Source: Nitrosopumilaceae archaeon | GTDB lineage: Archaea; Thermoproteota; Nitrososphaeria; Nitrososphaerales; Nitrosopumilaceae | Assembly (NCBI GenBank): GCA_028279545.1 | Contig: JANQNN010000012.1 | Span: 1-64,000, forward strand | Reading direction: 5' to 3' | Length of the DNA stretch: 64,000 nt | In this document: piece after piece, positions 25,228 through 52,635 of the stretch | Position numbering within the stretch: position 1 is the stretch's first letter | Layout: the number at the start of each line of letters is the position of its first letter | Translations under genes and position numbers: made by a program | The notes under the pieces: generated by a model | Databases searched by the model: none | Told to the model about the DNA's origin: nothing | What the model saw: only the letters and a program-made list of their open reading frames with translations

Positions 25228-25306
25228 AATTTTGTTAAATCCTGAAGAAATTTCTAGATTTCTTATTGTCTCAAAGTTTAAATGGATTTTAACAAGGTAG
25301 GTTTCT

Positions 25307-25381
25307 GGGCTCATAGTCCAGATCGGTTATGACGTCGCCCTTACACGGCGAAGATCCGGGGTTCAAATCCCCGTGGGCCCA
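25307..25381 (+). tRNA. tRNA-Val (anticodon TAC), integration target
   Basis: Acceptor GGGCTCA with TGGGCCC (one G-T pair), anticodon stem TCGCC/GGCGA around CTTACAC (anticodon TAC), T arm CCGGG-GTTCAAAT-CCCCG, discriminator A 25381. The 3' part from 25362 is repeated at 37173, and an integrase gene follows at once, so this tRNA has been the attachment site of two elements and remains intact. Confidence 0.95.
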
Positions 25382-25383
25382 TC
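25362..25383 (+). repeat. att site, tRNA-proximal copy
   Basis: A 22-base segment running from the T loop to two bases past the discriminator of tRNA-Val, identical to 37173-37194. Beyond the repeat the two flanks differ. This is the classic footprint of a tyrosine integrase at a tRNA 3' end. Confidence 0.9.
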
Positions 25384-25424
25384 CTACTTTAGTGACTGAA
25401 ATAGTCCCACTTACTAATAATAGT

Positions 25425-26810
25425 ATGAAGATAGGATTAGATAATATGGAAAACAATGCATATTCTAATTTTATTGATTCAATAAGAAATCCTGAAACCA
25501 AGCGTGGCTATGTCAGAAACCTGAAGCGATTCTTGAACCTGATACCAGATGATATATTTGTAAAATATTTGGGGATGGTTCCAAAATCAAGGGAGTTAGA
25601 AGATTTAACAAATGCCTTTATCGGCATTGCAAAAAAAGATATCAACGTCACAAAGTCATTAATCAGATCATATGTCAAACAGATAAAGCAAGAGGTTGAA
25701 TCAGGTCAAATAAGCCCAAACACTGTTTCAAACAGACTAAAGCCGATTAAGGCCTTGTTTGCAGCAAATGAGATTGACATGTCTTGGACAATAATTAACA
25801 AAATGTTTCCAAGAGAGACAAAAAGTGAGGATAGAGCATACACTAGGGAAGAAATCTCAAAGATGATAAAACACTGCACTGACATTACAGACAAGGTTAT
25901 CATTTTGATGTTCTCTTCTGGGGGGTTCAGATTGGAATCATGGGACTTTTTTTGTTGGAAAGATGTTGTATTTTTTAAGGATAAGGCAAACAAGTACAAG
26001 GGAGCTGCCTTGCGTGTTTACCGGGGAGATCCAGAAGAATACTGGACATTCGTCACTCCTGAAACTTGTGAGGCTTTGATGTTATACAGAGAAGAATGGA
26101 GATCCAGATTCTTGAGATATCCTGATGAAAATGATCCAGTTGTTGCATCTACAAGATTTGATAGACCCGTACGCCTCAGACAAAAAGGAATTCGCTCTAG
26201 AGTTGATAAAATCGTAACCAAGATTGGTCTGAGAGATCAATCAAAGAAAAAACAAAGAAGGTATGAGGTAAAACTTGACCATGGTTTTAGAAAGTATTTC
26301 AATACCATGATGAGACGTGCAAAGGTCAACTACCTAGACAAAGAAGATATGATGGGTCACAAGGTAGGGCTTGAGAAAAATTACGAGAGGTATCAAGAAG
26401 AAGATTTTGAACGATTTCCAGAATATCAAAAGGCAATTCCTTATCTCACTATATCAGATGAGGAGAGATTACGATTTGAAAATCAACAAAAACAAGATGA
26501 ACTTGAAGAGGTTGAAAAGAAAAATCTAGAGCTTCAAGACCTTGCAAAAAGAATCGATGAGCTGGAAAACGGACCCAAGGCAAGATGGAATGATTTTTAC
26601 AAAGATCTCTTCAAAGTACAGGAAAACCCAGAAAAAAAAATTACTCTTATGGTATTTCAGATGTGGTTTGAAATGAGGGCAACAGAAGAAGAAAAACGAG
26701 ACATCTGGAAAAAGATTCAGGAAGCAAAAAGAAATGGAAAAACCTTTGATGTATCAGAATTTGGGGAATCAAAAGGACTGAGTTTCGATAATTTGTATTC
26801 AGAAAAATAG
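25425..26810 (+). CDS. Tyrosine integrase of element A
   Basis: 461 residues from ATG 25425 (or ATG 25446). The frame is open into the tRNA but that part is not coding. A SAM-like N-terminal domain (FIDSIRNPETKRGYVRNLKRFL) precedes the catalytic domain: Arg in FSSGGFRLESWD, Lys region with YRGDPEEYW, H-x-x-R in LDHGFRKYFN, His in MMGHKVGLEK and Tyr in NYERY. A coiled coil follows (about residues 350-400). All catalytic residues are kept. It is clearly homologous to the integrase at 37240 and should recombine the tRNA-Val att sites. Confidence 0.92.
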   Translation: MKIGLDNMENNAYSNFIDSIRNPETKRGYVRNLKRFLNLIPDDIFVKYLGMVPKSRELEDLTNAFIGIAKKDINVTKSLIRSYVKQIKQEVESGQISPNTVSNRLKPIKALFAANEIDMSWTIINKMFPRETKSEDRAYTREEISKMIKHCTDITDKVIILMFSSGGFRLESWDFFCWKDVVFFKDKANKYKGAALRVYRGDPEEYWTFVTPETCEALMLYREEWRSRFLRYPDENDPVVASTRFDRPVRLRQKGIRSRVDKIVTKIGLRDQSKKKQRRYEVKLDHGFRKYFNTMMRRAKVNYLDKEDMMGHKVGLEKNYERYQEEDFERFPEYQKAIPYLTISDEERLRFENQQKQDELEEVEKKNLELQDLAKRIDELENGPKARWNDFYKDLFKVQENPEKKITLMVFQMWFEMRATEEEKRDIWKKIQEAKRNGKTFDVSEFGESKGLSFDNLYSEK

Positions 26811-26992: not shown

Positions 26993-28903
26993 TTACTCAT
27001 TAGAAAAATTTTCAAGTCTTGGATCATCTGGTGGTACTTTTTTCCTCATGGCATTAAAGAATTCTTGATGGGATTTTCTTGCTGTCTCTAGTAATGTATC
27101 CCAGGTTTTGGTATAGATGCCGTCTCGATGCGCTCTATCCATTTCTCCCTTTGCATCTTCAGAATAATTAGTACCTATTAAATATCCAAAAAAAGTTTTT
27201 TTGTTCTCTAAATTTGAAATCTTTGAATTTTCTTGTCTTAGAAAATCGATATAGGTCGTAAGTTGCTGAATTTCCGCCCTGCCTATTTTTTCCTTGGGTC
27301 GTTTAACTTCAATTACAAATGCTCTTCCCAATTCGCCTAAACAGAAAAAATCAATTCTTTTGTTTTTTCCCTTTGCTTTGGTTTTTTTATGAAATTTTTC
27401 CTTCAGGATGGTCTCTAATCTTTTTTCATGAGAAAGGCCCATGTAAGTCGGATCTATTAACCACGGATAGTCTTTGAGATATTCTTGCATGTTCGGTTTT
27501 TCAGGTACTCCTTTGTCAATCATTTCTTCAAATTTTTCAATAATCTTAATGTGAGATTTGACTATTTGGGCTATGGATACAGATTCTAATATTTGGAATT
27601 CTTGTAAGATTTCGTATAGCTTAGATTGTGCATCTGGAGATAAAGCAGAAACTTCATCAATCATATGAGTAAGTTCTTTATTTTCATAAGCATTAATTAG
27701 AGATCGTACTAACTCTATTAAACGGTCATCCTCAATTGTTTCTATCGAGGCCATTTTTGTCATGACAGCAGTTAATTCTTTCCTTTGTCTTTTAGGAAAT
27801 TTTTGAATACGTTCTAAGTATGGTGTTGCTCTTTGAATGTGTTCAATTTTGATTTTCCCACGTTCATCAGCCCATTTTGAAAGCACCGCAACAACCTTAG
27901 CTTTGCCCCATTCTTTTAGCAAAGCAGGAATTTTCATGGACCATAAAATAGTATTTCTTCCAGTGGTTACAAAATCAGTTTTATCATCTAAAAAATCTGC
28001 TTCAACTTCACCAGTCATGTATTGCATTCCATGTTGACCATATACACCACCAGTAACATCAAAAAACCAAGGCTCTTGAACTAATTTTCCTCTGGATAAA
28101 ACAGCAATGCCTCTTGATTCTGCATCATGTATTGGTTTTTCAGTAAAACCAATCCAAAATGTAACTGTACCAGCTCCAGGAATTTGAAAAACACCTTTCT
28201 TTTTGATAATTTTCTCTTTATCAAATTTCATACGATTGTTAGGAAAATAAATTTGAAATGGTCCTTCGTCTTTTTTTAATATTTTATCATTTATTTGTAC
28301 TTGAAATTTATCAGACAGTACTGAAAATCTCCTCGCCATACTTCGCATAAAAATATCTTCAACAATTGCGTTTCTGAGTTTTAAATTTCGAAGAATTACC
28401 TTAGTTCCATCATTATCTGATGTAGCAACATTATCCTCTTCTGGTAGGATTTCATAATCCTCTCCATGTTCTAATTTTTCTATAACTGAATAATCTAAAA
28501 CAAATTTTGTTCTTTTTTTGTTTTTCACAGTAATAATTTCAACTGTGTTAGCAATTCCAAAACCAGCTAATTTACCTAATCCTTTATGTGCCATGCGTTT
28601 ACGTTTAAATTTTCCTTGAGTATAGTTTCCATCTTCTTTTCTCGCATCTCTTCCTATAACCATATATTTTGAATCACAATCAGACCATTCCATTCCATGA
28701 CCATTGTCTTCTACTTCAATCATACTTGTAGTTGAAATTTTTTTTCCAAACGTGATATTGATTTTTACCTTTTCTGCATTTGCGTCCCATGCATTTGATA
28801 TTAATTCCGCAATGGCCGGAACAGGGCCAGCATACATTTGTAATCCTAAATGTCTTACCACTTCACCAGCAAACTTCATTTTAAGCGGTCTGGGTTTTGC
28901 CAT
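26993..28903 (-). CDS. GHKL (MutL/MORC/Hsp90-type) ATPase fused to a PD-(D/E)XK nuclease
   Basis: 636 residues. The ATPase domain shows the N box AIAELISNAWDANAEKVKI (E33, N37), motif VEDNGHGM (D66, G68, G70) and the lid AHKGLGKLAGFG (G108-K111). A helical middle (about 350-480) leads to a nuclease domain with RIDFF (D518) and VIEVKRP (E532, K534), the PD-(D/E)XK set, followed by QQLTTYIDFL. GHKL ATPases with Dcm and Vsr neighbours are known from restriction systems related to MORC proteins. Here ATPase and nuclease are in one chain, so it is probably the restriction subunit of the adjacent Dcm-type system. Confidence 0.85.
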   Translation of the reverse strand: MAKPRPLKMKFAGEVVRHLGLQMYAGPVPAIAELISNAWDANAEKVKINITFGKKISTTSMIEVEDNGHGMEWSDCDSKYMVIGRDARKEDGNYTQGKFKRKRMAHKGLGKLAGFGIANTVEIITVKNKKRTKFVLDYSVIEKLEHGEDYEILPEEDNVATSDNDGTKVILRNLKLRNAIVEDIFMRSMARRFSVLSDKFQVQINDKILKKDEGPFQIYFPNNRMKFDKEKIIKKKGVFQIPGAGTVTFWIGFTEKPIHDAESRGIAVLSRGKLVQEPWFFDVTGGVYGQHGMQYMTGEVEADFLDDKTDFVTTGRNTILWSMKIPALLKEWGKAKVVAVLSKWADERGKIKIEHIQRATPYLERIQKFPKRQRKELTAVMTKMASIETIEDDRLIELVRSLINAYENKELTHMIDEVSALSPDAQSKLYEILQEFQILESVSIAQIVKSHIKIIEKFEEMIDKGVPEKPNMQEYLKDYPWLIDPTYMGLSHEKRLETILKEKFHKKTKAKGKNKRIDFFCLGELGRAFVIEVKRPKEKIGRAEIQQLTTYIDFLRQENSKISNLENKKTFFGYLIGTNYSEDAKGEMDRAHRDGIYTKTWDTLLETARKSHQEFFNAMRKKVPPDDPRLENFSNE

Positions 28904-28947
28904 AACAAAATCAATGGTTTGTATAGTATTATATTTTTATAAATTTC

Positions 28948-29364
28948 ATGAGTGACATTTTTTCAAAACAAAAAAGATCTGAGGTTATGCGTAATATTAA
29001 GAGCAAAAACACAAAACTCGAATTATCTACAAAAAAATTACTAAGAAGAAAAAAGATCAAATTCAGATCGCATCCTAAAATTTTTGGGAAGCCAGATTTT
29101 ATTATTGAAAATAAATTAATTTTGTTTTGTGATAGCTCTTTTTGGCATGGAAGAAATTGGGAAAAATTGAAGAAAAGATTGGAAAAGGGAAATAATTCAG
29201 AATATTGGATAACTCACATAGAAAATAATAGAAAAAGAGATAGAAAGGTAAACAGTATTTTGAAAAAAGAAGGTTGTAAGGTAATCAGACTTTGGGATTC
29301 GGATATTCATAAAAGACCAGATTGGTGTGCAAGACAAATCCAAAACCGAATAAATTTAAGGTAA
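28948..29364 (+). CDS. vsr: Very short patch repair endonuclease (Vsr)
   Basis: 138 residues. Typical Vsr features are DIFSKQKRSEVMRNIKSKNT at the N-terminus, the metal Asp in FGKPDFII, ILFCDSSFWHGRNW with the His/Trp region that intercalates at the mismatch, and the C-terminal RLWDSDI. Vsr nicks T-G mismatches left by deamination of 5-methylcytosine. It lies divergent from the GHKL gene over a 44-base AT-rich gap and overlaps the Dcm gene tail to tail by nine bases. Confidence 0.9.
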   Translation: MSDIFSKQKRSEVMRNIKSKNTKLELSTKKLLRRKKIKFRSHPKIFGKPDFIIENKLILFCDSSFWHGRNWEKLKKRLEKGNNSEYWITHIENNRKRDRKVNSILKKEGCKVIRLWDSDIHKRPDWCARQIQNRINLR

Positions 29365-30423
29365 AATTTGCATTAATTGTATACCTATCCGTTTTGCCAA
29401 ATGAACAGGAACAGCGTCCCCAATCATTTCTTCTGCTCTTTGTCGATTTCCTCCCATTTGGAAGTTATCTGGAATTGTTTGAATTCTCATTGCTTCTCTG
29501 AGTGAGATTCCTCGATTTTGCGATGGATGAATAAAGCGTCCACATGCTGGTGTCGTACAGCGACATGTCATAGTAGGTGCTGGTTTATCCCACCACATTC
29601 TTCCATATACTGAATCTGCCCCATGTTTGATTTTTTTATGGCATTCTAACCAAAGGTTACGTGGCAATTGAGTACGGCTTCCACCATTTTTCGGAATTGC
29701 CTTAATAATTTTCAAAACTTTAGGATCGTGATTTCTAGAAAAGTGTAAATTATCTTCAATGTCTTTTTTTCCCACACTAATAGGTTTTAGATCTTTAATG
29801 GCATCTTTAACGGTTTTGTGATTTCGCTTTTTTGTATTAAGGAATTTCTGCAAAGATTTTTGAACTTTTTGAGTCATATGTTTTTTTTTAATTGATATTG
29901 CAATAACCCTATGTCTGTTTTGTGGTACGTTAAAATCTGCGGCGTTTACTGTGTTAAACACAGTACTATAACCAGCTTTTTCTAGTTTTTTCAAATAATA
30001 TTCAAAAAATTTCTTTCCGGGTCCTTTTACCATCCATGCAACATTTTCAAAAACCACTGCAGTAGGTTTGGTTTCCTCAATTATCTTGGCAAATTTTTTT
30101 ACATATTTGCTTCGGGGATCCGAAGAAGCGTTTACCGATGTTGTGTCTGAAAGCTTACTAAATGATTGGCAAGGGGGGCATCCAACAATACAAAATCTTT
30201 CGGTTTTACGGATTTTCCCTGCCTTGAGGATTTGCTTACCGTCTACATTCATAACGTCGCGGATGATAGGTTTTACCTTCAAATTACTTTCATAGACTTC
30301 ACAACGAATCGGGTTAATTTCCAAAGCAGTAGCAATTTCAAATCCAGCTTGTCTGAATCCTAGAGAGGCGCATCCCATTCCCGAAAATATGTCAACAAGT
30401 TTGTATCGTTTTTGGGATTTCAC
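29356..30423 (-). CDS. dcm: DNA cytosine-5 methyltransferase (Dcm type)
   Basis: 355 residues with all key motifs: I in KLVDIFSGMGCASLGFRQAG, IV as VGCPPCQSFS (catalytic Cys), VI as VFENVAWM, VIII as QNRHRVIAIS and X as GDAVPVHLAKRIG. The target-recognition region (about 190-280) is short. It probably protects element DNA against the GHKL-nuclease; the Vsr next door would repair its deamination products. Read on the minus strand, upstream of the HEPN-type gene's end. Confidence 0.92.
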   Translation of the reverse strand: MKSQKRYKLVDIFSGMGCASLGFRQAGFEIATALEINPIRCEVYESNLKVKPIIRDVMNVDGKQILKAGKIRKTERFCIVGCPPCQSFSKLSDTTSVNASSDPRSKYVKKFAKIIEETKPTAVVFENVAWMVKGPGKKFFEYYLKKLEKAGYSTVFNTVNAADFNVPQNRHRVIAISIKKKHMTQKVQKSLQKFLNTKKRNHKTVKDAIKDLKPISVGKKDIEDNLHFSRNHDPKVLKIIKAIPKNGGSRTQLPRNLWLECHKKIKHGADSVYGRMWWDKPAPTMTCRCTTPACGRFIHPSQNRGISLREAMRIQTIPDNFQMGGNRQRAEEMIGDAVPVHLAKRIGIQLMQILP

Positions 30424-31351: not shown

Positions 31352-31642
31352 TTACGGATAATTTTTGATCATGTGTTGGTACATTAAATCAAGGTCTCGA
31401 AACTCTGGACAATCCATCTCAACGTATTTCATGATTTGCTCATATTGGAGACTGGTTGCTTCACGCTCACTTGTTGCCATTTCAGGGCTATGATTTAGCT
31501 CCCAAATGTCCTTGTAAAGTAGCAGGCATTCTAATTCTTTAGATTCTGAATTAACAAGCGAAGAAGTGCCAAATACCCATCCAACGATGAAACTGACAAT
31601 TACTAAAATTACAAAAGATAAAAAGATTATTTTCTTATTCAT
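31352..31642 (-). CDS. Small signal-anchored exported protein
   Basis: 96 residues from ATG 31642 (MNKKIIFLSFVILVIVSFIV as anchor); a start at 31669 is possible. The exported part is helical with two Cys (ECLLLYKD, MDCPEFRDLD). The segment DCPEFRDLDLMYQHMI resembles the DLxxxPxFxxLI motif of two other exported proteins in these elements (33799, 47764). It overlaps the stop of the gene upstream. Confidence 0.55.
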   Translation of the reverse strand: MNKKIIFLSFVILVIVSFIVGWVFGTSSLVNSESKELECLLLYKDIWELNHSPEMATSEREATSLQYEQIMKYVEMDCPEFRDLDLMYQHMIKNYP

Positions 31643-32726
31643 TTTCAAATAACATCCGATAAATTTCATCTAGTCTAGGTTCAAAATAAGGATCGTATTG
31701 TGATTTAATTACAATAAATGTCGCTCCAATAATTTCTTCTTTTAATAACAGACTAGAAGATTTACCGCCACTTCCAAACCTCATTGCTTTGCTAATATCC
31801 TCAATTTCGACCTTTGTCCCATTTGAGAATTTTAAATCAGGATGCAAAACGATTCTTACTGTTTCTTTACCTGCAATTTTATCACCATCATTGTGTTGAC
31901 CTACCATTGAAGCGCCAAGGGGATAATTTGTGAAAATTGGTTTTCCAACAAACTCAGGTAATCTCAAAAAGGGGTGAGTGTAATTATCAAACCTAAACTG
32001 GGTAGAGTTTTCATTCACGTTTCCAGGAAAAATATAGACAGTAAGATTGTGTGGTTTTGTCCATCCCCGTTCAATTAGTTTAGGAATAGTTTCAGGTTTA
32101 ACACAAGCTGGAAATCCATTATTTGATTTGAGAATTACTTCAAATTCATTATTGCAATGGACAAACTCAGGTTTTACTCCTCGTTCATATTGTACAAGTG
32201 GAGAAGGATTGTTTATGATTTCAAAGAAAGCAGTTTTTACAATTTCTCCTGTGGGATACGAAAGGCCATATGTTTTTTCAAAAGTAATGGTAAATTTTCC
32301 CGACTTTGTAATATTGTATAACCAATGATTGGTCAGAATTTCATATCTAGATTCATTGCTTGCACCCCACAAAGTAGCATCAATTCTATTGCCATCAGGA
32401 TCAAACACTTCATGAAGATAATTCTCGATGTCTGGAATATCATAAGATGGCATTGAATAATGATACACTAAATTTTCTCCATACTTTATCTTGTCAGGAG
32501 TTACTTTGACGGTGATTTCCGGAGTATATTCATTTGAATCTCCAAATCTTTGACAGAGATCAAATATTGTATTGGCATCCTCTGAATCTAGAAATGAATT
32601 ATCTTTGCATAATTTCTTCAAATCTTCTAATTTTTCTGGAATTTCTGCAAAGGCTTCAAAATTTACAAGATTGATTGACACTAAAGTTATAGAAAAAATT
32701 AGAAACAAAAATATCAAGAATCTCAT
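31635..32726 (-). CDS. Secreted protein with an ACVK module
   Basis: 363 residues. A signal peptide (MRFLIFLFLIFSITLVSINL to about residue 28) is followed by a beta-rich domain (EITVKVTPDKIKYGENLVYH, KSGKFTITFEKTYG). At about residues 190-225 comes the module C-x4-E-V-I-L-K-S..GFPACVKPETIPKLIERGW, shared with the proteins at 35518, 49344 and 51520. The C-terminal 130 residues are unique. The gene lies in element A, upstream of a small exported protein with overlapping ends. Confidence 0.6.
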   Translation of the reverse strand: MRFLIFLFLIFSITLVSINLVNFEAFAEIPEKLEDLKKLCKDNSFLDSEDANTIFDLCQRFGDSNEYTPEITVKVTPDKIKYGENLVYHYSMPSYDIPDIENYLHEVFDPDGNRIDATLWGASNESRYEILTNHWLYNITKSGKFTITFEKTYGLSYPTGEIVKTAFFEIINNPSPLVQYERGVKPEFVHCNNEFEVILKSNNGFPACVKPETIPKLIERGWTKPHNLTVYIFPGNVNENSTQFRFDNYTHPFLRLPEFVGKPIFTNYPLGASMVGQHNDGDKIAGKETVRIVLHPDLKFSNGTKVEIEDISKAMRFGSGGKSSSLLLKEEIIGATFIVIKSQYDPYFEPRLDEIYRMLFENE

Positions 32727-35517: not shown

Positions 35518-37047
35518 TTGAGAATGAAGGTAATTTCCATTATTTTATCGGTAATTTTATTTTCGGGAATTTTTGGAATAGGGGATTCTTTTGCAAAAGA
35601 ATGCAAACAAGAACATGTTTTAATTTTCAAAGTATCAAAAAATACTCCTGCTTGTGTACAGCCCACAACAGCAGAGCGATTAATGGAAAGGGGTTGGGGA
35701 ATGATGCCTGAAGAACCTTTTTCAAATTATCAAGACTCTTGTGAGGCAGAACCTGATCCTGGACTTTGTAGAGCCGCATTTATGAAATATTTTTTCAACC
35801 CCGAAACTTCTTCTTGTGAGGAATTCATTTGGGGGGGATGCGGAGGTGTAGTTCCCTTTGACTCATTGTCTAGCTGTCAAGTTCAATGTGAAACTGCAAA
35901 CACCTCTGAACCAATTACTCAACTTAATGAAAATAGTGTAATTGATGCAAATAATCAATTTGCTTTAGATTTCTATTCTCAAGTTTCAAAAGATAATAAT
36001 GAAAATATTTTCTTCTCACCTTGGAGCATCTCTACTGCTTTTGCCATAGCGTTTGAAGGGGCAAAGGAAAAAACGACTGAAGAAATTCAACAAGTTTTTG
36101 GCTTTCCAATCGATTATGACACAAGAACTTCAGAATTTCAAACTGCGATTAAAGACCTAAACCCTGATGATGTTCCATACCAATTAACAGTCGCAAATGC
36201 CTTATGGTTGGCAGAAAGATTTGAACCATTTCAAGATTATGTAGATACTGCTACTACCTATTATGATAGTGAAGTATCAACCGTGGATTTTGTTTCAGAT
36301 GAAGGAGTTGATAAAATTAATGCGTGGGTAGAGAACAAAACTAATGAGAAAATAAAAGATATTCTAGCGCCTGGTTCTACGGATGCATTAACACGTCTTG
36401 CAATAACAAATGCAATTTATTTCAAAGGAAACTGGGTTACACAATTTGATAAAAATGATACTCGTGAAGATCCATTTTGGATAACTCCAGATGAAAATGT
36501 TACAGTTCCCTTGATGCGCTTAATTCCAAATGTCTTCAACTACACCGAAACAGAAACTATGCAAATTCTCAAAATGCCATATGAAGGTGACAGACTATCG
36601 ATGTTAGTATTATTACCTAAAGAAAAAGATAACCTGCCACAATTAGAAGAATCACTTTCTGTTGAGAACCTAAATCAATGGAATAACCAATTAAGGCCAA
36701 CTGAAATTCAGATATTTATTCCAAAATTCAAACTAGAAACAATGTATAATCTTGTAGATCCGCTATCTGAAATGGGAATGCCAACTCCATTTATTGCCGG
36801 GTCGGCTAATTTTGAAGGAATTGCCCCAATTTCATTATATATTTCACAAGCAGTTCACAAGGCCTTTGTTGATGTTAATGAAGAAGGAACTGAAGCTGCT
36901 GCTGCAACTGCTATAGTGATTACAGCGGAATCATCCAAGCCACCTGTTCCAGTCTTTAAAGCAGATCATCCTTTTGTCTTTTTGATTCAAGATGATTCTA
37001 CTGAAAATATCTTATTTATTGGAAAAGTAGTAAACCCAACAAAATAA
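35518..37047 (+). CDS. Secreted Kunitz-serpin double protease inhibitor
   Basis: 509 residues from TTG (ATG at 35524 is in frame). Signal peptide to about residue 26; ACVK module at 29-60; a Kunitz/BPTI domain at C75-C124 with the spacing C-x8-C-x15-C-x7-C-x11-C-x3-C, WGGCGG as usual and P1 Arg85; then a complete serpin (about 140-509). The serpin breach, shutter and hinge are present (FFSPWSISTAFAIAFEGAKE, ITNAIYFKGNW, VDVNEEGTEAAAATAI, DHPFVFLI). The hinge alanines mark an inhibitory serpin; simple counting puts Glu-Ser at P1-P1'. It should block trypsin-like and Glu-cleaving serine proteases outside the cell. Confidence 0.92.
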   Translation: MRMKVISIILSVILFSGIFGIGDSFAKECKQEHVLIFKVSKNTPACVQPTTAERLMERGWGMMPEEPFSNYQDSCEAEPDPGLCRAAFMKYFFNPETSSCEEFIWGGCGGVVPFDSLSSCQVQCETANTSEPITQLNENSVIDANNQFALDFYSQVSKDNNENIFFSPWSISTAFAIAFEGAKEKTTEEIQQVFGFPIDYDTRTSEFQTAIKDLNPDDVPYQLTVANALWLAERFEPFQDYVDTATTYYDSEVSTVDFVSDEGVDKINAWVENKTNEKIKDILAPGSTDALTRLAITNAIYFKGNWVTQFDKNDTREDPFWITPDENVTVPLMRLIPNVFNYTETETMQILKMPYEGDRLSMLVLLPKEKDNLPQLEESLSVENLNQWNNQLRPTEIQIFIPKFKLETMYNLVDPLSEMGMPTPFIAGSANFEGIAPISLYISQAVHKAFVDVNEEGTEAAAATAIVITAESSKPPVPVFKADHPFVFLIQDDSTENILFIGKVVNPTK

Positions 37048-37172: not shown

Positions 37173-37194
37173 TTCAAATCCCCGTGGGCCCATC
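37173..37194 (+). repeat. att site, second copy (element A right end / element B left end)
   Basis: Identical over 22 bases to 25362-37383-type tRNA tail at 25362-25383, without the rest of the tRNA. It separates element A from the next integrase gene. Confidence 0.9.
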
Positions 37195-37239: not shown

Positions 37240-38421
37240 ATGGTAATTAGCATAGAAAAAATAAACATTCGGGATGATCCCTATCAACTATTTCTAGATT
37301 CTATTAGAAATGAGTCAACAAAAAGGAATTACAGAAAACGACTTTACCAGTTTCTTAAAGAAATTCCAAATGAAATTTACTCCGAACATCTAAGGAAAAT
37401 TCCCCAAGATTATGAACCCAACACTTTGGCAAGCTTTTTTGTTTATCTTGCAAAGAAAGACTCCGATCTTGCATCTGATGTTATTGCTGCTTACATTAAA
37501 GAGGACCGAAAACGAGTAGAAACAGGAGAGATTAGCTCTCAAACTTTGCCTAATCATATCAAACCAATCAAAGTATTACTGGATGCAAATCGTATTCACA
37601 TTCACTGGAAGTCCCTTCACAAGTTAATGCCTCGACGCGAATCCAAATCCAAGGATCGAGCATACACCAGAGAAGAGATACAAAAGATGCTGGAGGTAAC
37701 AAATGACCTTACAGATAGGGTAATAATTCTAATGTTTTCATCTGCTGGATTTAGATTAGAGGCCTGGGACTATTTTACTTGGAAAGATGTAATATTTTTT
37801 AAAAATGATGATGGTTCCTTCAAAGGAGCATCTTTGCTAATCTACAGGGGAGATCCTGAAAGTTATTTCACCTTTATCACTCCAGAAGCGTGTGAAGCAT
37901 TGATTCTCTATCGGGAAAACTGGAACGCTGAAATTAGAAGTTATCCTAAACCCGATGATCCTTTAATCAAATCCAAACAATCACCGATTGTACGTCGATT
38001 AAATCAAAAAGGAGTAAGAAAAAGAATGGATAAGGTTGTTCATGCAATTGGTCTTAGACCTCCTCTACCTTATGGAAAAAGACGCCATGCTGTGCAATTA
38101 GATCACGGATTTAGAAAATACTTTAACACCATGCTAAGGAGAGCCAAAGTGGATTATCTTGACAAAGAGGACATGATGGGGCATAAAGTAGGTTTGGAAA
38201 AGCACTATGAAAGGTATAATGAGGAAGATTTTGAGCGATTCCCAGAATATCAAAAGGCAATCCCATTTCTTACAATTTCAGATACTGAACGAGTCAAATT
38301 TGAAAATCAACAACTAAAAGAAGAAAAAACCTCGTTGGAAAAAAAATTACCCGAAATGATTGAGGAAGCAATAAAGAGAATTAAGGTAGATTTGCAAAAA
38401 GAAGGTTGGAAATCTAAATAA
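37240..38421 (+). CDS. Tyrosine integrase of element B
   Basis: 393 residues, homologous throughout to the integrase at 25425 (DSIRNESTKRNYRKRLYQFL, RAYTREEIQKML, FSSAGFRLEAWDYFTWKDV, LDHGFRKYFNTMLRRAKVDY, MMGHKVGLEKHYERYNEEDF). Arg, Lys, H-x-x-R, His and Tyr are kept. It is shorter at the C-terminus, lacking about 70 residues of the coiled-coil region. It should use the same tRNA-Val att site, consistent with tandem insertion. Confidence 0.92.
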   Translation: MVISIEKINIRDDPYQLFLDSIRNESTKRNYRKRLYQFLKEIPNEIYSEHLRKIPQDYEPNTLASFFVYLAKKDSDLASDVIAAYIKEDRKRVETGEISSQTLPNHIKPIKVLLDANRIHIHWKSLHKLMPRRESKSKDRAYTREEIQKMLEVTNDLTDRVIILMFSSAGFRLEAWDYFTWKDVIFFKNDDGSFKGASLLIYRGDPESYFTFITPEACEALILYRENWNAEIRSYPKPDDPLIKSKQSPIVRRLNQKGVRKRMDKVVHAIGLRPPLPYGKRRHAVQLDHGFRKYFNTMLRRAKVDYLDKEDMMGHKVGLEKHYERYNEEDFERFPEYQKAIPFLTISDTERVKFENQQLKEEKTSLEKKLPEMIEEAIKRIKVDLQKEGWKSK

Positions 38422-42322: not shown

Positions 42323-43690
42323 TTGGCATTAATTTCAACTACTACCTACATTGATTTGGAAGGCAGATTAGACGCTCCTTTTTACAAATCAGAATACGTT
42401 GAATTAGAAAACACTTTAAACAAAATTGAAAAATCTAAAAAATTTAAAATTCTTCCTTTAGGATCAATTTCAAACAAAATAAACAAAGGAATTTTTTATA
42501 TTTTAAAGAATGAATATCGATCAGAGGGAATTCCCTTTATCCGAGTAGCCGATATAAAACCAATTTTTCTTGAACCCTCAAACATGCAATTCATTTCAAA
42601 GGAAAAAAATGATTTGGAAAAAATTACATCGTTAAAACCTGGAGATTTAGTTATATCTAAAAGCGGAACTGTTGGAAGAGTTTCCTTGCTTTTTGATGAT
42701 TATCCTACCTATAATATTAGCCAAGATGTAATTGGTATTTCAATAAAAAAATCCAGAATCTTACCAGAATATCTTGTTGCGTTTTTAAACACAAAATTTG
42801 GGCAATTTCAATTACAGCGTGGTAAATCGATTGTAGTTCAAGCTCACTTGGAATTAGGAGCAATTAGAAATTTAAGAATCATTATTCCTGATAACAAGAA
42901 ACAACGACAGATTGCTAATAAAATAAAAAAAATACGATCTCTAAAAAACAAAACCGAAGAACTTTACAGAGAAGCACTAACTACCTTAGATAAATTATTA
43001 AAATTAAAAAAATCTGAAAATGATTCAATGCACTTTTCTATTCCCTACCGAGAAATTTCAAATTCTATTGGTTGGAGTGTAGAGCAACATTTACCTAAAT
43101 ATGCCGAAATCTTGGAATCGCTAGAGAACTCATCGTTTCCAATAAAAAACGTTTCACAATTGGTGGAAATTTCTCACGAGAAATTGGACCCAAGAAATTT
43201 TCCTGAAAAGATTTTTAATTATATACCATTTTCAAATATATCTGCCTCTTTTGGATTCATTGAAAGTTCAAATAAATTTAAGGGTCATGAGGCAAAGAAA
43301 AGAGCTAGAAACTTCTTAAGAACTAACGACATTTTGATTCCAAATCTTGAAGGGTCTTTTAATAAAGTTGGAATTGTTACAAAGGAGTTCAACGAATCCA
43401 TTGGAACCACAGGATTTTTTGTTTTGCGAACTAAACGTATGAATCCTTGGTTTGCCTTTGCATTATTTAGAAGTGAAATTGGTCAACTCCAACTACCTCA
43501 AAAGATTTCAGGAACCATTTTACAGTCAATTTCTGAAGATGTATTAAAAGAAATTAAATTACCACTAATTCCCAAAAAGTCTCAAGACCTTATTGGAAAT
43601 CTAATGTTACAATCGTATAATACGTATATCCAATACCATAAATTAAAAAAAAATTGTTTAACAGATTTAGAAAATTACTTAAGAATTTAG
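42323..43690 (+). CDS. hsdS: Type I/IIB specificity subunit (HsdS-like)
   Basis: 455 residues from TTG, one base after the preceding stop. Two target-recognition halves: the first has PLGSISNKINKGIF, PFIRVADIKP, LKPGDLVISKSGTVGRVSLL and the coiled NKIKKIRSLKNKTEELYREA; the second begins around ISNSIGWSVEQHLPKY and has ISASFGFIESS, RTNDILIPNLEGSFNKVGIV and the closing helix. Each half reads half of a split DNA site. The two spacer helices should hold the methyltransferase-nuclease chains. Confidence 0.9.
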   Translation: MALISTTTYIDLEGRLDAPFYKSEYVELENTLNKIEKSKKFKILPLGSISNKINKGIFYILKNEYRSEGIPFIRVADIKPIFLEPSNMQFISKEKNDLEKITSLKPGDLVISKSGTVGRVSLLFDDYPTYNISQDVIGISIKKSRILPEYLVAFLNTKFGQFQLQRGKSIVVQAHLELGAIRNLRIIIPDNKKQRQIANKIKKIRSLKNKTEELYREALTTLDKLLKLKKSENDSMHFSIPYREISNSIGWSVEQHLPKYAEILESLENSSFPIKNVSQLVEISHEKLDPRNFPEKIFNYIPFSNISASFGFIESSNKFKGHEAKKRARNFLRTNDILIPNLEGSFNKVGIVTKEFNESIGTTGFFVLRTKRMNPWFAFALFRSEIGQLQLPQKISGTILQSISEDVLKEIKLPLIPKKSQDLIGNLMLQSYNTYIQYHKLKKNCLTDLENYLRI

Positions 43691-43704
43691 GAGAAATTTG
43701 TTCT

Positions 43705-44553
43705 TTGAACTTTAATGAAATACTATCACGTCTTGAAATCATTAAACGAATAGAACATGACACACAATCAAAAATTATAACGTTTTATAAAAATTCCAAA
43801 AATCGTGAAACAACCGGAATGATTGATGAAGAATCATTTAATAATATACAGCTAGCGCTTGACCAAATTGGAGATTACGATCCTGTAACTTTAGTTTTAC
43901 ATAGTACTGGAGGACAAACTATTGCTGGTTTTAAAATTGCTGATCTTTTAAAAAAGAGGCAAGGACCCGTCCAAGCAATTATTCCTGAAGAAGCTCTTAG
44001 TGCAGCTACTCTAATAGCCTTATCAACTCAAAAAATAATTATGCTAAATAAATCAAAAGTTGGCCCAGTAGAACCACAATTGTTTTATGGTAATGAATAC
44101 GTTTCAAGTTTAGATCTTTTAGAGAGTGTTGATCCTGTTATACAAAGCAAGGGACAAAGAGCAATAAATCAAGCAAAGGAGCATTTAAAAATCTTATGCG
44201 GTGATTTAATGCCCAAAACAAAATTAAAAAAATTAACAGATCGGGTTTTACTTACCGATAGTAAACATCCCTCTCATGCTTCACCGATTTATCAAGGGGA
44301 ATTAGCGCAACTTGGAATTCCCGTTATTTCGGACCATGATCTTAATGTTAGTGCTCTTCATAGCTTGTACAAAAAACATTCCTTCACCGAATTAGATCCT
44401 AGTATTATTATTGAATATACTAAAGATCCAATTCAAAATATTGAAACAACTGAAAATGCCGAAAACAAATTAGAAAATTGCCCTTCATGTGGATTTTTTC
44501 TCATTGAAAATGATGAAGGTAAAACATGTCCGTCATGTGGATTGAGTTACTAG
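43705..44553 (+). CDS. Clp/SppA-fold serine protease with C-terminal zinc ribbon, in the RM operon
   Basis: 282 residues from TTG 43705, preceded by GGAG at 43690; a frame upstream overlaps hsdS. VTLVLHSTGGQTIAGFKIAD corresponds to the oxyanion/turn region and EEALSAATLIALSTQKIIM carries the serine nucleophile in the SDH family of Clp-fold serine proteases. KVGPVEPQ follows, as is typical. Residues 250-282 form a zinc ribbon (CPSCGFFL..GKTCPSCG). No membrane helix, so it is cytosolic. Its place 14 bases behind hsdS suggests a joint role, perhaps controlling RM components or acting as an effector (inference). Confidence 0.75.
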   Translation: MNFNEILSRLEIIKRIEHDTQSKIITFYKNSKNRETTGMIDEESFNNIQLALDQIGDYDPVTLVLHSTGGQTIAGFKIADLLKKRQGPVQAIIPEEALSAATLIALSTQKIIMLNKSKVGPVEPQLFYGNEYVSSLDLLESVDPVIQSKGQRAINQAKEHLKILCGDLMPKTKLKKLTDRVLLTDSKHPSHASPIYQGELAQLGIPVISDHDLNVSALHSLYKKHSFTELDPSIIIEYTKDPIQNIETTENAENKLENCPSCGFFLIENDEGKTCPSCGLSY

Positions 44554-48707: not shown

Positions 48708-49347
48708 TTGAAATTTCTCCTAATTATTGCCTTAATCTTGGTTTTTTGCAGGAATATTGTTTGAAAATGTACAAGCAACGCAATGCATCGGAAGGGATTT
48801 TCGAATAGAAGATGAAACCTTTTCGAAACAAAATGTCTCAGTTGGAGAATCTCTAGAAATAATGGGAAGCATAGTCAGCATTAGTCAGGATCAATTAGAA
48901 TTAGATCCTTGGGCTGTAATTAGATTTTCAGACCAATCTTCCTTTGCAAATAGCTTTTCAAGTATTTTTTCTGAGACTCCAGTACTTTGTAAAGGGGGAA
49001 CGTCTGATGGAAATCTAAATTGGTATTTCAAGATATCATCTGAACCTTTAGAACCATTTACTTTGGAGCCGGGAGATGAAGTTCCTTATTCAATAACTTT
49101 GGTTCCACAAAAATCTGGCACCTATAATATTAGGTCAGCAATGTTATTTGATGATGTTTATCGAGCCGGACCAGGACAAACCATTACCGTTGAAGGATAT
49201 GAAGGATTAACAGATGGAGAACTGTTTGGATTCTACTTGCCATTTTTTACAAGTATTTTTTTAATTGCTTTTGGAATAATTACGGGGATTATTTTGATTC
49301 GAAGAAAATTTAGTAATAAACCTAAATCTTGGGAGAAATTATCTTGA
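48708..49347 (+). pseudogene. Exported beta-domain protein with a frameshift in the signal peptide (T6 run)
   Basis: TTG 48708 opens MKFLLIIALILVF, but the frame then leaves the gene; the mature part (GILFENVQATQCIGRDFRI and on) is in another frame. They join at the T6 run 48742-48747: five T would give one continuous protein of about 212 residues with a normal signal peptide. The mature domain is beta-rich (VGESLEIMGSIVSIS, YSITLVPQKSGTYNIRSAML) with YRAGPGQTITVEGY and a C-terminal membrane helix. As given, only a leaderless version from TTG 48757 could be made. It overlaps the serpin gene start. Confidence 0.6.
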
Positions 49348-51512
49348 AAATATTTTTTCTACTATTCTCAATTTTGATTTTTTCCTCTGTATTTGGACTT
49401 CAAGAATCTTTTGCTGAAGAATTTAATCAATTTAAATGGAATTATGATGGAGCGATTTCTTCTTCAGGGTGTAAGGTAATTAATGGCAATATTGTTGATG
49501 ACAATAATTTACAAAAGTGCGTCTATCGTGACAAATTATTCAAAATTGTGGACATCGATAAAGCTTGTGGAGAGGCAATGACTAGTTGGACTGATCCAGA
49601 AACACAAAAAACTTTTAGCTATACTGATACTTGTGACCACCCCTTATTCTGTGATAAGAACGGTGGTGCCGATGCCCCTTATGGTATGTCCACAGCATCT
49701 GAATACCTAGAAAGAAATTCTGTAAATGACTTGTTTTTTGGTGAAAATGTTTGGTTCATTTCTAAATTTACTGGTGATGTTTGTTATGGAACTTTGGATT
49801 TAAAATACTCTCAACTTGACAATAGGATAGATGTTGAAATAGATGGACAATGGAATAACACAGTAGTGGAAATATCAATTCCACCCCAATTGCATACACC
49901 AGCGCTAGAAGTACAAATCGATGAGTCTCCTGTTGATTTTTCTATCACAAAAAATTTCAAGGACAACACTCTAGTTAGGGAAAATTCAATTCTTCAAGTA
50001 ATTCCTCCAAAGTCAAATTACCCTCAAAAAATCACAATACTTCCACATGGTATAATCAACCCTTACGAGACTAATGTTCCCGATAAAAATTTCCTAAAAA
50101 ACAAAACTAATTCAATTAATTCCGAAGCACCTAACTCATCACATTCTAACATTTTACCTCCACTCAAGCAGGTTCAAAATGGAGTTGCGCCAAACGATGT
50201 TGCCTGTAAAGAAAATTTTAATTTAATTTTCAAATCTTCTGACCACTCTCCAGCATGTGTAAAATCATCAACTGCTGAGAAATTAATTAAGCGTAATTCA
50301 TGGGTTTCCTCTTGGATGGGAGGAATAGTCAGTACTTCCTCAAGTACAGATACAACCTCTATGACAAAAAAATATGCAAGTTTAGTAGATTCAAACAACC
50401 AGTTTGCTTTTGATTTCTACTCTGAAATAACAAACCAAAATGAAAATATCTTTTTTTCACCCTACAGTATAATGAATGCTTTTGCCATTGTAAATGAGGG
50501 AGCAAAAGAAGATACCAAGAAAGAAATTAACAATGTCTTTGGATTTCCTGAGGATTCTAAAATATTACGAGATGATTTTTCAAAAATTTCTGAAAGTCTA
50601 AACCAGGAAAATTCTGCATATGAACTTCAAGTTGCAAATGCGCTTTGGGTTACAGAACTATACAACCTAAAACCTGAATTTGTTGAGGCTACAAAGGTAC
50701 ATTATGATAGCCAAGTCGAAAGTGTTGATTTTGTATCAGATGATGGAGTAAACAAGATGAATTCATGGGTTTCAAACGAGACCAACCAAAAAATAAAACA
50801 AATTCTAAAACCTGGCTCTACTAACGCAGAGACGGTATTTTTTGTCACAAATGCGATTTATTTCAAAGGGACTTGGGTAACCCAGTTTGAAGAAAAATCT
50901 ACGATAGATGATGATTTTTGGCTAAATTCCGAGGATAAAGTACCAGTAAAAATGATGAATCTTTATCCAAAATATCTATCGCACGGAGAATTTGAGGAAT
51001 TGGAAATTCTAAAACTCCCCTATGAAGGAGACCGACTATCTTTGATGGTTTTACTTCCCAACCAGATAGATGGACTAGGATCAGTTGAAGAATCTATTTC
51101 AAATGAAAAACTAAGGAATTGGATTGCTGAATTGGATTCAAATTTTGTTGCAGTCTCAATTCCGAAATTTAAACTCGAGACAGATTATGACCTAAAGGAA
51201 TTGCTTGAAGAAATGGGACTGGAGTTAATTTTTGATGACAAGAAAGCAGATTTGTCTGGAATTGCAGAATTATCCGGACCCTTTGGAGTCCTTCACGTAA
51301 ATAAAGCCATTCACAAGGCCTTTGTTGATGTAAATGAAGAAGGAACAGAGGCTGCTGCCGTTACTGCCATTGGAGGAATGTATGAATCGAGTATGCCACC
51401 AAAACCACATATATTCAAGACAGATCATCCTTTCATGTTTTTAATTTGGGATGATGAAACGCAATCAATTTTATTTTTAGGCAAAATTTCAAATCCTGAA
51501 GGATTGGGATAA
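49344..51512 (+). CDS. Secreted serpin with N-terminal beta domain and ACVK module
   Basis: 722 residues from TTG 49344, overlapping the previous stop. Signal peptide MKIFFLLFSILIFSSVFGLQ, a Cys-containing domain (about 25-150) that includes CGEAMTSWTDPETQKTFSY, a beta segment and linker, then LPPLKQVQNGVAPNDVACK and SPACVKSSTAEKLIKR (the ACVK module, about 275-325). The serpin domain (about 345-722) has FFSPYSIMNAFAIVNEGAKE, VTNAIYFKGTW, VDVNEEGTEAAAVTAI and DHPFMFLI. The hinge is inhibitory, and counting again puts Glu-Ser at P1-P1'. Unlike the 35518 protein it has no Kunitz domain. Confidence 0.88.
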   Translation: MKIFFLLFSILIFSSVFGLQESFAEEFNQFKWNYDGAISSSGCKVINGNIVDDNNLQKCVYRDKLFKIVDIDKACGEAMTSWTDPETQKTFSYTDTCDHPLFCDKNGGADAPYGMSTASEYLERNSVNDLFFGENVWFISKFTGDVCYGTLDLKYSQLDNRIDVEIDGQWNNTVVEISIPPQLHTPALEVQIDESPVDFSITKNFKDNTLVRENSILQVIPPKSNYPQKITILPHGIINPYETNVPDKNFLKNKTNSINSEAPNSSHSNILPPLKQVQNGVAPNDVACKENFNLIFKSSDHSPACVKSSTAEKLIKRNSWVSSWMGGIVSTSSSTDTTSMTKKYASLVDSNNQFAFDFYSEITNQNENIFFSPYSIMNAFAIVNEGAKEDTKKEINNVFGFPEDSKILRDDFSKISESLNQENSAYELQVANALWVTELYNLKPEFVEATKVHYDSQVESVDFVSDDGVNKMNSWVSNETNQKIKQILKPGSTNAETVFFVTNAIYFKGTWVTQFEEKSTIDDDFWLNSEDKVPVKMMNLYPKYLSHGEFEELEILKLPYEGDRLSLMVLLPNQIDGLGSVEESISNEKLRNWIAELDSNFVAVSIPKFKLETDYDLKELLEEMGLELIFDDKKADLSGIAELSGPFGVLHVNKAIHKAFVDVNEEGTEAAAVTAIGGMYESSMPPKPHIFKTDHPFMFLIWDDETQSILFLGKISNPEGLG

Positions 51513-51519
51513 TACGGTT

Positions 51520-52635
51520 TTGAACTTATTTCTAATTTTAACCTCAATTTTGATTGTTGCCTCAGTTTTGATTATTTCTTCCGTATTTGAACTTCAAGAT
51601 GCTCTTGCAGAGGAATCAACTACTTCCAATTCAAATGCCGAACCTCAAGTTCTCATATCTCCTTGTGAGAAAAAACATGAACCATACGATCCAAATGTTC
51701 CACTAGAAAGAGGAGAACCTTTGGGAATCCGAATAGTTGATGTTGAAGGAAATACTCGTAGTAGTGTAAACCTAAATGAAAAAACCTTTCTAACCTACGG
51801 TATTTCCAATGAAGATTCTTCAAGGTGTTTAATGGAAATTGAAATATTTGTATATCATTATGAAAATGATGGAAAAGAAAAACTAGTTTCATACGAAAAA
51901 ATTAAAGAAAAGTTTCTCCCACATCAAGGAAAGCAGATTCCAGGAACTTTTACGCCTTCCTTGGAAGGAGAATATTTAGTAATATTTGATCCAAAAGGAT
52001 TTCCCCCAAGTGAGATTTCATTTTTCGTTTTTGAGTCTCCCTCTGCTAAAATAAATTACATAAAAAAATTACCTCCACTTAAACAAATTCAAAAAGGAAT
52101 TTTACCAATTGATGTTAGTTGTAAACAAAATTTTGAATTAATTTTAAAATCACCAGACCATTCTTCTGCTTGTGTAAAACCATCTACTGCTGAAATCCTT
52201 GTAAAGCGAGGATGGATTCAACCTGAATTATTTTTTCTGGTCCCCAATCCTAATGAAAAGGAGTATGAAGTAAAACCTAGGGAATGGCAAACCTCAGGTC
52301 CATTTCAAATAGACAGAAGGGAATATGCCTTAGGTGAGAAAATTTTCCTAAAAATTGACGGGTTAAGTCTAGAAGAGAAAGGTCAAATTACTGTTATGAG
52401 ACCCCTAAACATTACACATTATTCTGTATATGTTACAATTCCCTTTGATGGGGCAAATAAGGATGCCTTCAATTACTATATTGATCCTCAATTATCCAAA
52501 ACACGTGGATTGTGTTCAGTTGATGATGTTCTTGGAAAATGGGCTTTGGTTTTTAGAGGTACGAACTATTCGAATCTAAATTTTGAAATTATCGAATCTA
52601 TTGTTCCTGGAACAGACTGGAACCCAGTATGCTGA
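51520..52635 (+). CDS. Secreted protein with PLERG domain and ACVK module
   Basis: 371 residues from TTG, seven bases after the serpin. Signal peptide MNLFLILTSILIVASVLIIS; PLERG beta domain at about 58-170 (homologous to 34305); the ACVK module at about 185-230 (LPPLKQIQKGILPIDVSCKQ, then SSACVKPSTAEILVKRGW); and a unique C-terminal domain (YALGEKIFLKIDGLSLEEKG to TDWNPVC). Likely exported with the serpin and cotranscribed with it. Confidence 0.65.
   Translation: MNLFLILTSILIVASVLIISSVFELQDALAEESTTSNSNAEPQVLISPCEKKHEPYDPNVPLERGEPLGIRIVDVEGNTRSSVNLNEKTFLTYGISNEDSSRCLMEIEIFVYHYENDGKEKLVSYEKIKEKFLPHQGKQIPGTFTPSLEGEYLVIFDPKGFPPSEISFFVFESPSAKINYIKKLPPLKQIQKGILPIDVSCKQNFELILKSPDHSSACVKPSTAEILVKRGWIQPELFFLVPNPNEKEYEVKPREWQTSGPFQIDRREYALGEKIFLKIDGLSLEEKGQITVMRPLNITHYSVYVTIPFDGANKDAFNYYIDPQLSKTRGLCSVDDVLGKWALVFRGTNYSNLNFEIIESIVPGTDWNPVC

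Follow-up and report, generated by a model that had tools for sequence, protein, structure and literature searches.

Kunitz domains are textbook animal inhibitors of proteases, and an open reading frame in a Nitrosopumilaceae archaeon, an ammonia oxidiser of marine type, appeared to join such a domain to a serpin in one exported protein. The locus raises the question of whether this pairing is real, where its parts came from, and what a protein of this kind would do for an archaeal cell. The gene lies in a stretch of 64,000 nucleotides (GenBank assembly GCA_028279545.1, contig JANQNN010000012.1, positions 1 to 64,000), referred to here as the window. The features considered below are listed in Table 1.

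Table 1. Coordinates of the Kunitz-serpin gene, its domains and neighbouring features in the window
Feature	Position	Strand	Remarks
tRNA-Val(tac)	25306..25384	+	left att copy formed by its 3′ end, 25362-25383
Tyrosine integrase of element A	25329..26810	+	Phage_integrase below Pfam cut-off, E 0.0026; true start lies downstream of the listed one, which falls within the tRNA
Restriction-modification cargo of element A	26993..30423	mixed	REase-II-like 26993-28903 (−), Vsr-like 28948-29364 (+), C5 methylase 29356-30423 (−)
Kunitz-serpin gene	35518..37047	+	open frame of 509 codons from TTG; ATG at 35524 is the likelier start, 507 aa
Probable Sec signal peptide, MKVISIILSVILFSGIFGIGDSFA followed by KEC	35524..35595	+	read from sequence; L006 (G089 protein) has a similar signal sequence
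WING-49 module (NCBIfam NF058652)	35599..35700	+	residues 28-61, E 1.3e-12
Kunitz/BPTI domain	35740..35892	+	Cys spacing 8-15-7-11-3, P1 Arg85; HMM, relatives, structure model
Full-length serpin domain	35947..37038	+	HMM and sequence relatives
Serpin hinge and reactive-centre loop, EEGTEAAAATAIVITA-E-S (P17-P1′)	36880..36933	+	counting gives P1 as Glu471, in an uncertain register
Right att of element A	37173..37194	+	repeats 22 bp of the tRNA-Val 3′ end exactly, 126 bp past the Kunitz-serpin gene
Second tyrosine integrase	37240..38421	+	start of next inserted unit, just past the att repeat; 56% identical to element A integrase
Second serpin (WING-49 and serpin, no Kunitz)	49329..51512	+	P1 Glu/P1′ Ser by count

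A Kunitz domain and a serpin in one open reading frame

Read from the sequence, the ATG two codons past the TTG begins a better, typical signal peptide, and neither a lipobox nor a C-terminal membrane anchor was seen in the protein. The Pfam model Kunitz_BPTI (PF00014) matched residues 75-125 with E 1.2e-11 and a score of 45 bits, the cut-off being 21; the model Serpin (PF00079) matched residues 144-507 over positions 2-370 of its 370 with E 5.6e-121. An NCBIfam search added a WING-49 domain that the earlier note on this DNA had overlooked. The order along the protein is signal peptide, WING-49, Kunitz, serpin, and the Pfam and NCBIfam scores of these domains cannot be due to chance. The exported Kunitz-serpin fusion that had been proposed for this archaeon is thus borne out, with both models matching far above their cut-offs within one open frame and with export predicted.

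The WING-49 module was found in 46 of 61 sampled Nitrosopumilaceae genomes and was absent from 14 control genomes. The window's own genome has 21 copies, and a simple motif search detected the module in 7 of 23 serpin frames. Further WING-49 frames in the window lie at 31635-32726 (minus strand), 49329-51512 and 51520-52635, and the module is abundant on exported Nitrosopumilaceae proteins. WING-49 may have a common place-keeping or surface-binding role.

The Kunitz head

All six Kunitz cysteines are present, with the spacing 8-15-7-11-3 as against 8-15-7-12-3 in animals. Arg85 (TTG numbering) immediately follows Cys2 and occupies P1, as had been assigned previously, with Ala at P1′; the canonical binding loop (G-L-C-R-A) and its W-G-G-C support are both in place. 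An AF2 model of the Kunitz part, built with 23 relatives, had a mean pLDDT of 91.3. In a Foldseek search the best matches of this model were solved Kunitz domains: the trypsin-bound second Kunitz domain of TFPI (KD2), with rmsd 1.4 and E 1.8e-5, and TFPI KD1, APPI and BPTI. TM was 0.7-0.8 and rmsd about 1.4-1.7 Å over these matches. Sequence relatives in the PDB were TFPI, SmCI and boophilin. Structure prediction, which had been suggested as a check, succeeded for the Kunitz part; the full-length model was poor (pLDDT 43, from a thin alignment with two serpin rows), and for the serpin the fold is taken from its relatives in sequence and from homologues of solved structure.

The domain shares with animal Kunitz/BPTI domains (PF00014; MEROPS I2; the nearest being TFPI KD2, SmCI and boophilin) the fold, the six cysteines, Arg or Lys at P1 and the Gly-Gly-Cys loop support, at about 33-45% identity and a Foldseek rmsd of 1.4 Å. 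It differs from them in the Cys4-Cys5 gap of 11 rather than 12, in VPF replacing the Asn43-type GN-x-N motif, in its prokaryotic host and in the serpin fused to it. Some animal venom members of the family have roles other than protease inhibition.

A short-gap Kunitz branch in prokaryotes

Approximately 85,000 prokaryotic species genomes were scanned with an alignment of four archaeal Kunitz domains and one TFPI domain, an alignment with several animal sequences being too loose for a genome scan. The scan found 25 Kunitz loci, two in Nitrosopumilus and 23 in bacteria: 11 in Bacteroidota (mostly Flavobacteriales), seven in Alcanivorax, two each in Campylobacterota and Neomarinimicrobiota, and one of Myxococcota type. 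A Cys4-Cys5 gap of 11 and the signature GGCxGxVPF occurred in 22 of the 23 bacterial loci, and L068 alone had the animal-like gap of 12. The scan pattern ends at GGC, so the gap was not forced, yet the range of detectable domains was limited.

In a tree of 35 rows the short-gap domains stood apart from the animal domains and L068 with support 95/91, and the window's domain grouped with those of the Nitrosopumilaceae genomes G089 and G174 with support 96/84; with few columns and long branches, the deeper branching of this tree is unsure. The gap of 11 in the bacterial relatives, together with the separation in the tree, indicates a group trait and a domain of prokaryotic type. The gap that the earlier note counted as one residue short is therefore no defect. 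Its statement that Kunitz domains are known mainly from animals also needs revision, since the short-gap clade extends to marine bacteria of several phyla and to further Nitrosopumilaceae. Judged by sequence, the window's Kunitz domain is a member of a scattered prokaryotic clade and not a fresh animal copy.

Contamination with animal DNA, or a recent transfer out of an animal, was rejected because the domain clusters with short-gap domains of bacteria and archaea and the gene lies on a 168-kb archaeal contig of 33% GC. A viral or plasmid origin was likewise rejected, no Kunitz relatives having been found in phages, plasmids or viral contigs.

The bacterial proteins found share the gap of 11 and the GGCxGxVPF signature with the Nitrosopumilaceae domains. 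They are either small and lipoprotein-like or secreted with a single Kunitz domain; none is fused to a serpin, and no serpin was found near any of the 23 bacterial loci. Among the short-gap domains L045-L067, those of Alcanivorax are on small, lipoprotein-like proteins and several of those from Flavobacteriales lack a basic P1. A search of the open-access literature turned up no paper on archaeal or other prokaryotic Kunitz domains, on a Kunitz-serpin fusion or on WING-49.

Rarity and mosaic origin of the fusion

PF00014 matched in six of 250 Nitrosopumilaceae genomes, and there was no credible match outside the family in samples of 400 genomes of the class and 398 of the phylum. A Kunitz match in G317 (L037) was discarded as spurious; it has no cysteine frame and contains stops. 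Four of the six genomes carry an intact domain (the window's genome, G089, G174 and G038). The copy in G149 (L041) lacks Cys4, and that in G154 (L042/L054) is a 64-aa fragment lacking Cys5. The archaeal Kunitz domain is thus not always kept, two related copies having lost a cysteine. A Kunitz domain and a serpin in one frame were found in no second genome among the 250.

The two parts of the protein have different closest relatives. Over residues 1-145 it is 57% identical to a protein of G089 with the same signal, WING-49 and Kunitz parts (54-57% over residues 1-147), and residues 127-506 are 57% identical to a serpin of G009 that has WING-49 and no Kunitz domain (57-59% for the serpin). The joint lies at about residues 127-145, and the two partners come from two different archaeal genera. 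The G089 protein (L006/L038) shares the signal/WING-49/Kunitz cassette and runs on into a Peptidase_Mx-like metallopeptidase domain, below the Pfam cut-off, where the window's protein has a serpin. At L038:4561-7245 this places an inhibitor and a protease on one chain.

Values of dN and dS (NG86) were 0.20/1.01 for the Kunitz pair, 0.35/1.14 for the N-terminus and 0.33/1.72 for the serpin, and are rough because synonymous change is near saturation. The low dN relative to dS in both halves indicates that both are under purifying selection, with dN/dS near 0.2, and are kept as proteins.

The serpin head and its relatives

The serpin part has solved relatives in the PDB that include conserpin, serpin B3 and many others. 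Its hinge from P17 to P8, EEGTEAAAAT, is an exact match to the inhibitory-serpin type. Among 24 family serpins compared, there is little variation in the hinge, and the loop past P8 is variable. By count, P1 is Glu471 and P1′ is Ser472; the loop is four residues longer than that of conserpin, so the cut site may differ. Glu/Ser at these positions occurs in five of the 24, the second serpin of the window among them. The description of this head as a full inhibitory-type serpin agrees with the near-complete profile match and the hinge, inhibitory activity itself being predicted. The second serpin has a long N-terminal region and sits in the unit past the att repeat.

Of the 250 Nitrosopumilaceae genomes, 33 have serpins, and these genomes belong to 13 of 22 genera. 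Thaumarchaeota serpins, for example those of Ca. N. ianthellae and C. symbiosum, had already been described (PMC6790972, PMC7848895). The earlier view that the fusion is unexpected in an archaeon thus applies to the pairing, which occurs in one of 250 family genomes, and not to the serpin. The published thaumarchaeal serpins (MEROPS I4) are, like this one, predicted to be exported and inhibitory; no Kunitz head is reported for them, and the word Kunitz is absent from both papers.

The gene is carried on a tRNA-Val element

The 3′ end of tRNA-Val is repeated exactly just behind the Kunitz-serpin gene; zero copies of this 22-bp repeat are expected by chance, and no third copy was found within the 168-kb contig. 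Together with the tyrosine integrase next to the tRNA, the repeat confirms the integrative-element setting that had been proposed. From the tRNA onwards, element A contains the integrase, the restriction-modification set, small exported proteins and the Kunitz-serpin gene. With the second copy 126 bp behind it, the Kunitz-serpin gene closes the cargo of the element, which is 11.8 kb long.

In G044, a genome of the same genus, the sequence that begins within about 40 bp downstream of tRNA-Val corresponds to contig position 112037 of the genome studied here. Because tRNA-Val there adjoins far-flank sequence, element A is part of an apparent island of ~87 kb that is absent from G044; a precise second boundary or att was not found near 112 kb. 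Tandem integrases between window position 25306 and position 112037 of the contig (C13) suggest stacked elements. Elsewhere in the window, the frame at 43654-44553 (plus strand), close to type I restriction genes, encodes a ClpP-like serine protease of SDH type whose C-terminal tail resembles a zinc ribbon, and that at 52788-55367 (plus strand) an exported protein of 859 aa with two cupredoxin-like stretches.

Discussion

The domains, the Kunitz fold, the serpin hinge, the mosaic origin, the purifying selection and the element rest on data; from these we predict export, activity, targets and role. We put at roughly two in three the probability that the protein is an exported two-headed serine-protease inhibitor whose likeliest role would be protection of the cell from proteases of other organisms. 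After Sec export, WING-49 may hold or place the protein at the cell surface. The rigid loop of the Kunitz head, with Arg at P1, Ala at P1′ and its Gly-Gly-Cys support, would dock into trypsin-like S1 proteases and inhibit them tightly and reversibly. Cleavage in the reactive loop of the serpin head, between Glu and Ser by count, would let this head trap the attacking protease covalently; Glu-preferring S1 proteases or subtilases are candidate targets.

The window's genome has a single S1 protease, which is HtrA-like and carries a membrane stretch at its N-terminus, and for this reason the trypsin-directed Kunitz head probably meets a protease from outside the cell. For the serpin head, outside or own proteases are possible, and the cell's own subtilases are possible targets that it could also restrain; both uses have been proposed for serpins of sponge-dwelling relatives (PMC6790972, PMC7848895).

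A serious if unlikely alternative takes the second use as the main one, as proposed for the sponge symbionts, with the serpin regulating the cell's own exported S8 subtilases and the Kunitz domain a passenger or surface-binding module. The genome has at least six S8 subtilase frames, one of them about 50 kb downstream on the same contig; serpins of Ca. N. ianthellae adjoin S8 genes (PMC6790972), and the closest serpin, that of G009, lacks a Kunitz domain. However, no S8 gene adjoins the Kunitz-serpin gene, which travels on a mobile element without the proteases, and a passenger would need neither an intact P1 Arg and Gly-Gly-Cys loop nor purifying selection on the Kunitz domain. We consider it improbable that the protein is a host-association factor, by which an archaeon living in or on an animal or protist resists digestive or immune serine proteases of its host. 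Sponge-associated Thaumarchaeota are rich in serpins, for which such a role has been proposed (PMC7848895, PMC6790972), but the spread of serpins over 13 of 22 genera is hard to square with sponge symbiosis alone, and the Kunitz domain is of prokaryotic type.

We regard it as very improbable that the pairing is an artefact of assembly or a gene in decay, and not a working protein. The fusion is known from one assembly, which has 57 contigs, and the G149 and G154 copies of the Kunitz domain are losing cysteines. Against this, the frame is uninterrupted and the linker intact, the contig is 168 kb long in a genome that is 99% complete with 0.35% contamination, and dN/dS is low in both halves. The N-terminal part also has its match, in the same signal/WING-49/Kunitz order, in G089, which is an independent single-contig genome.

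On the two-headed inhibitor reading, the gene would have arisen when a WING-49/Kunitz cassette was joined to an existing archaeal serpin, and the fusion would then have been carried as cargo on the tRNA-Val integrative element. We suggest more tentatively, and at somewhat less than even odds, that prokaryotes hold an old, independent short-gap Kunitz branch. This branch would move among marine bacteria and archaea, its domain serving as a cassette that recombination attaches to one exported effector or another. Here the outcome would be an inhibitor with a reversible and a suicide head, which tRNA-Val elements would carry from one archaeon to the next.

Animals, too, have multi-head inhibitors that unite several inhibitor domains in a single chain, such as TFPI, bikunin, SmCI, boophilin and the WAP-Kunitz proteins. 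To our knowledge, all heads of these are small canonical inhibitors, with no suicide-type serpin on the same chain. The combination of two known inhibitor families is new and unusual, and a prokaryotic Kunitz branch lies behind the pairing. The modules of exported proteins, WING-49, Kunitz, serpin and metallopeptidase, are shuffled within the Nitrosopumilaceae. An archaeal protein that combines reversible with suicide inhibition would offer a well-defined case, open to experiment, of the way in which ammonia oxidisers may withstand extracellular marine proteases.
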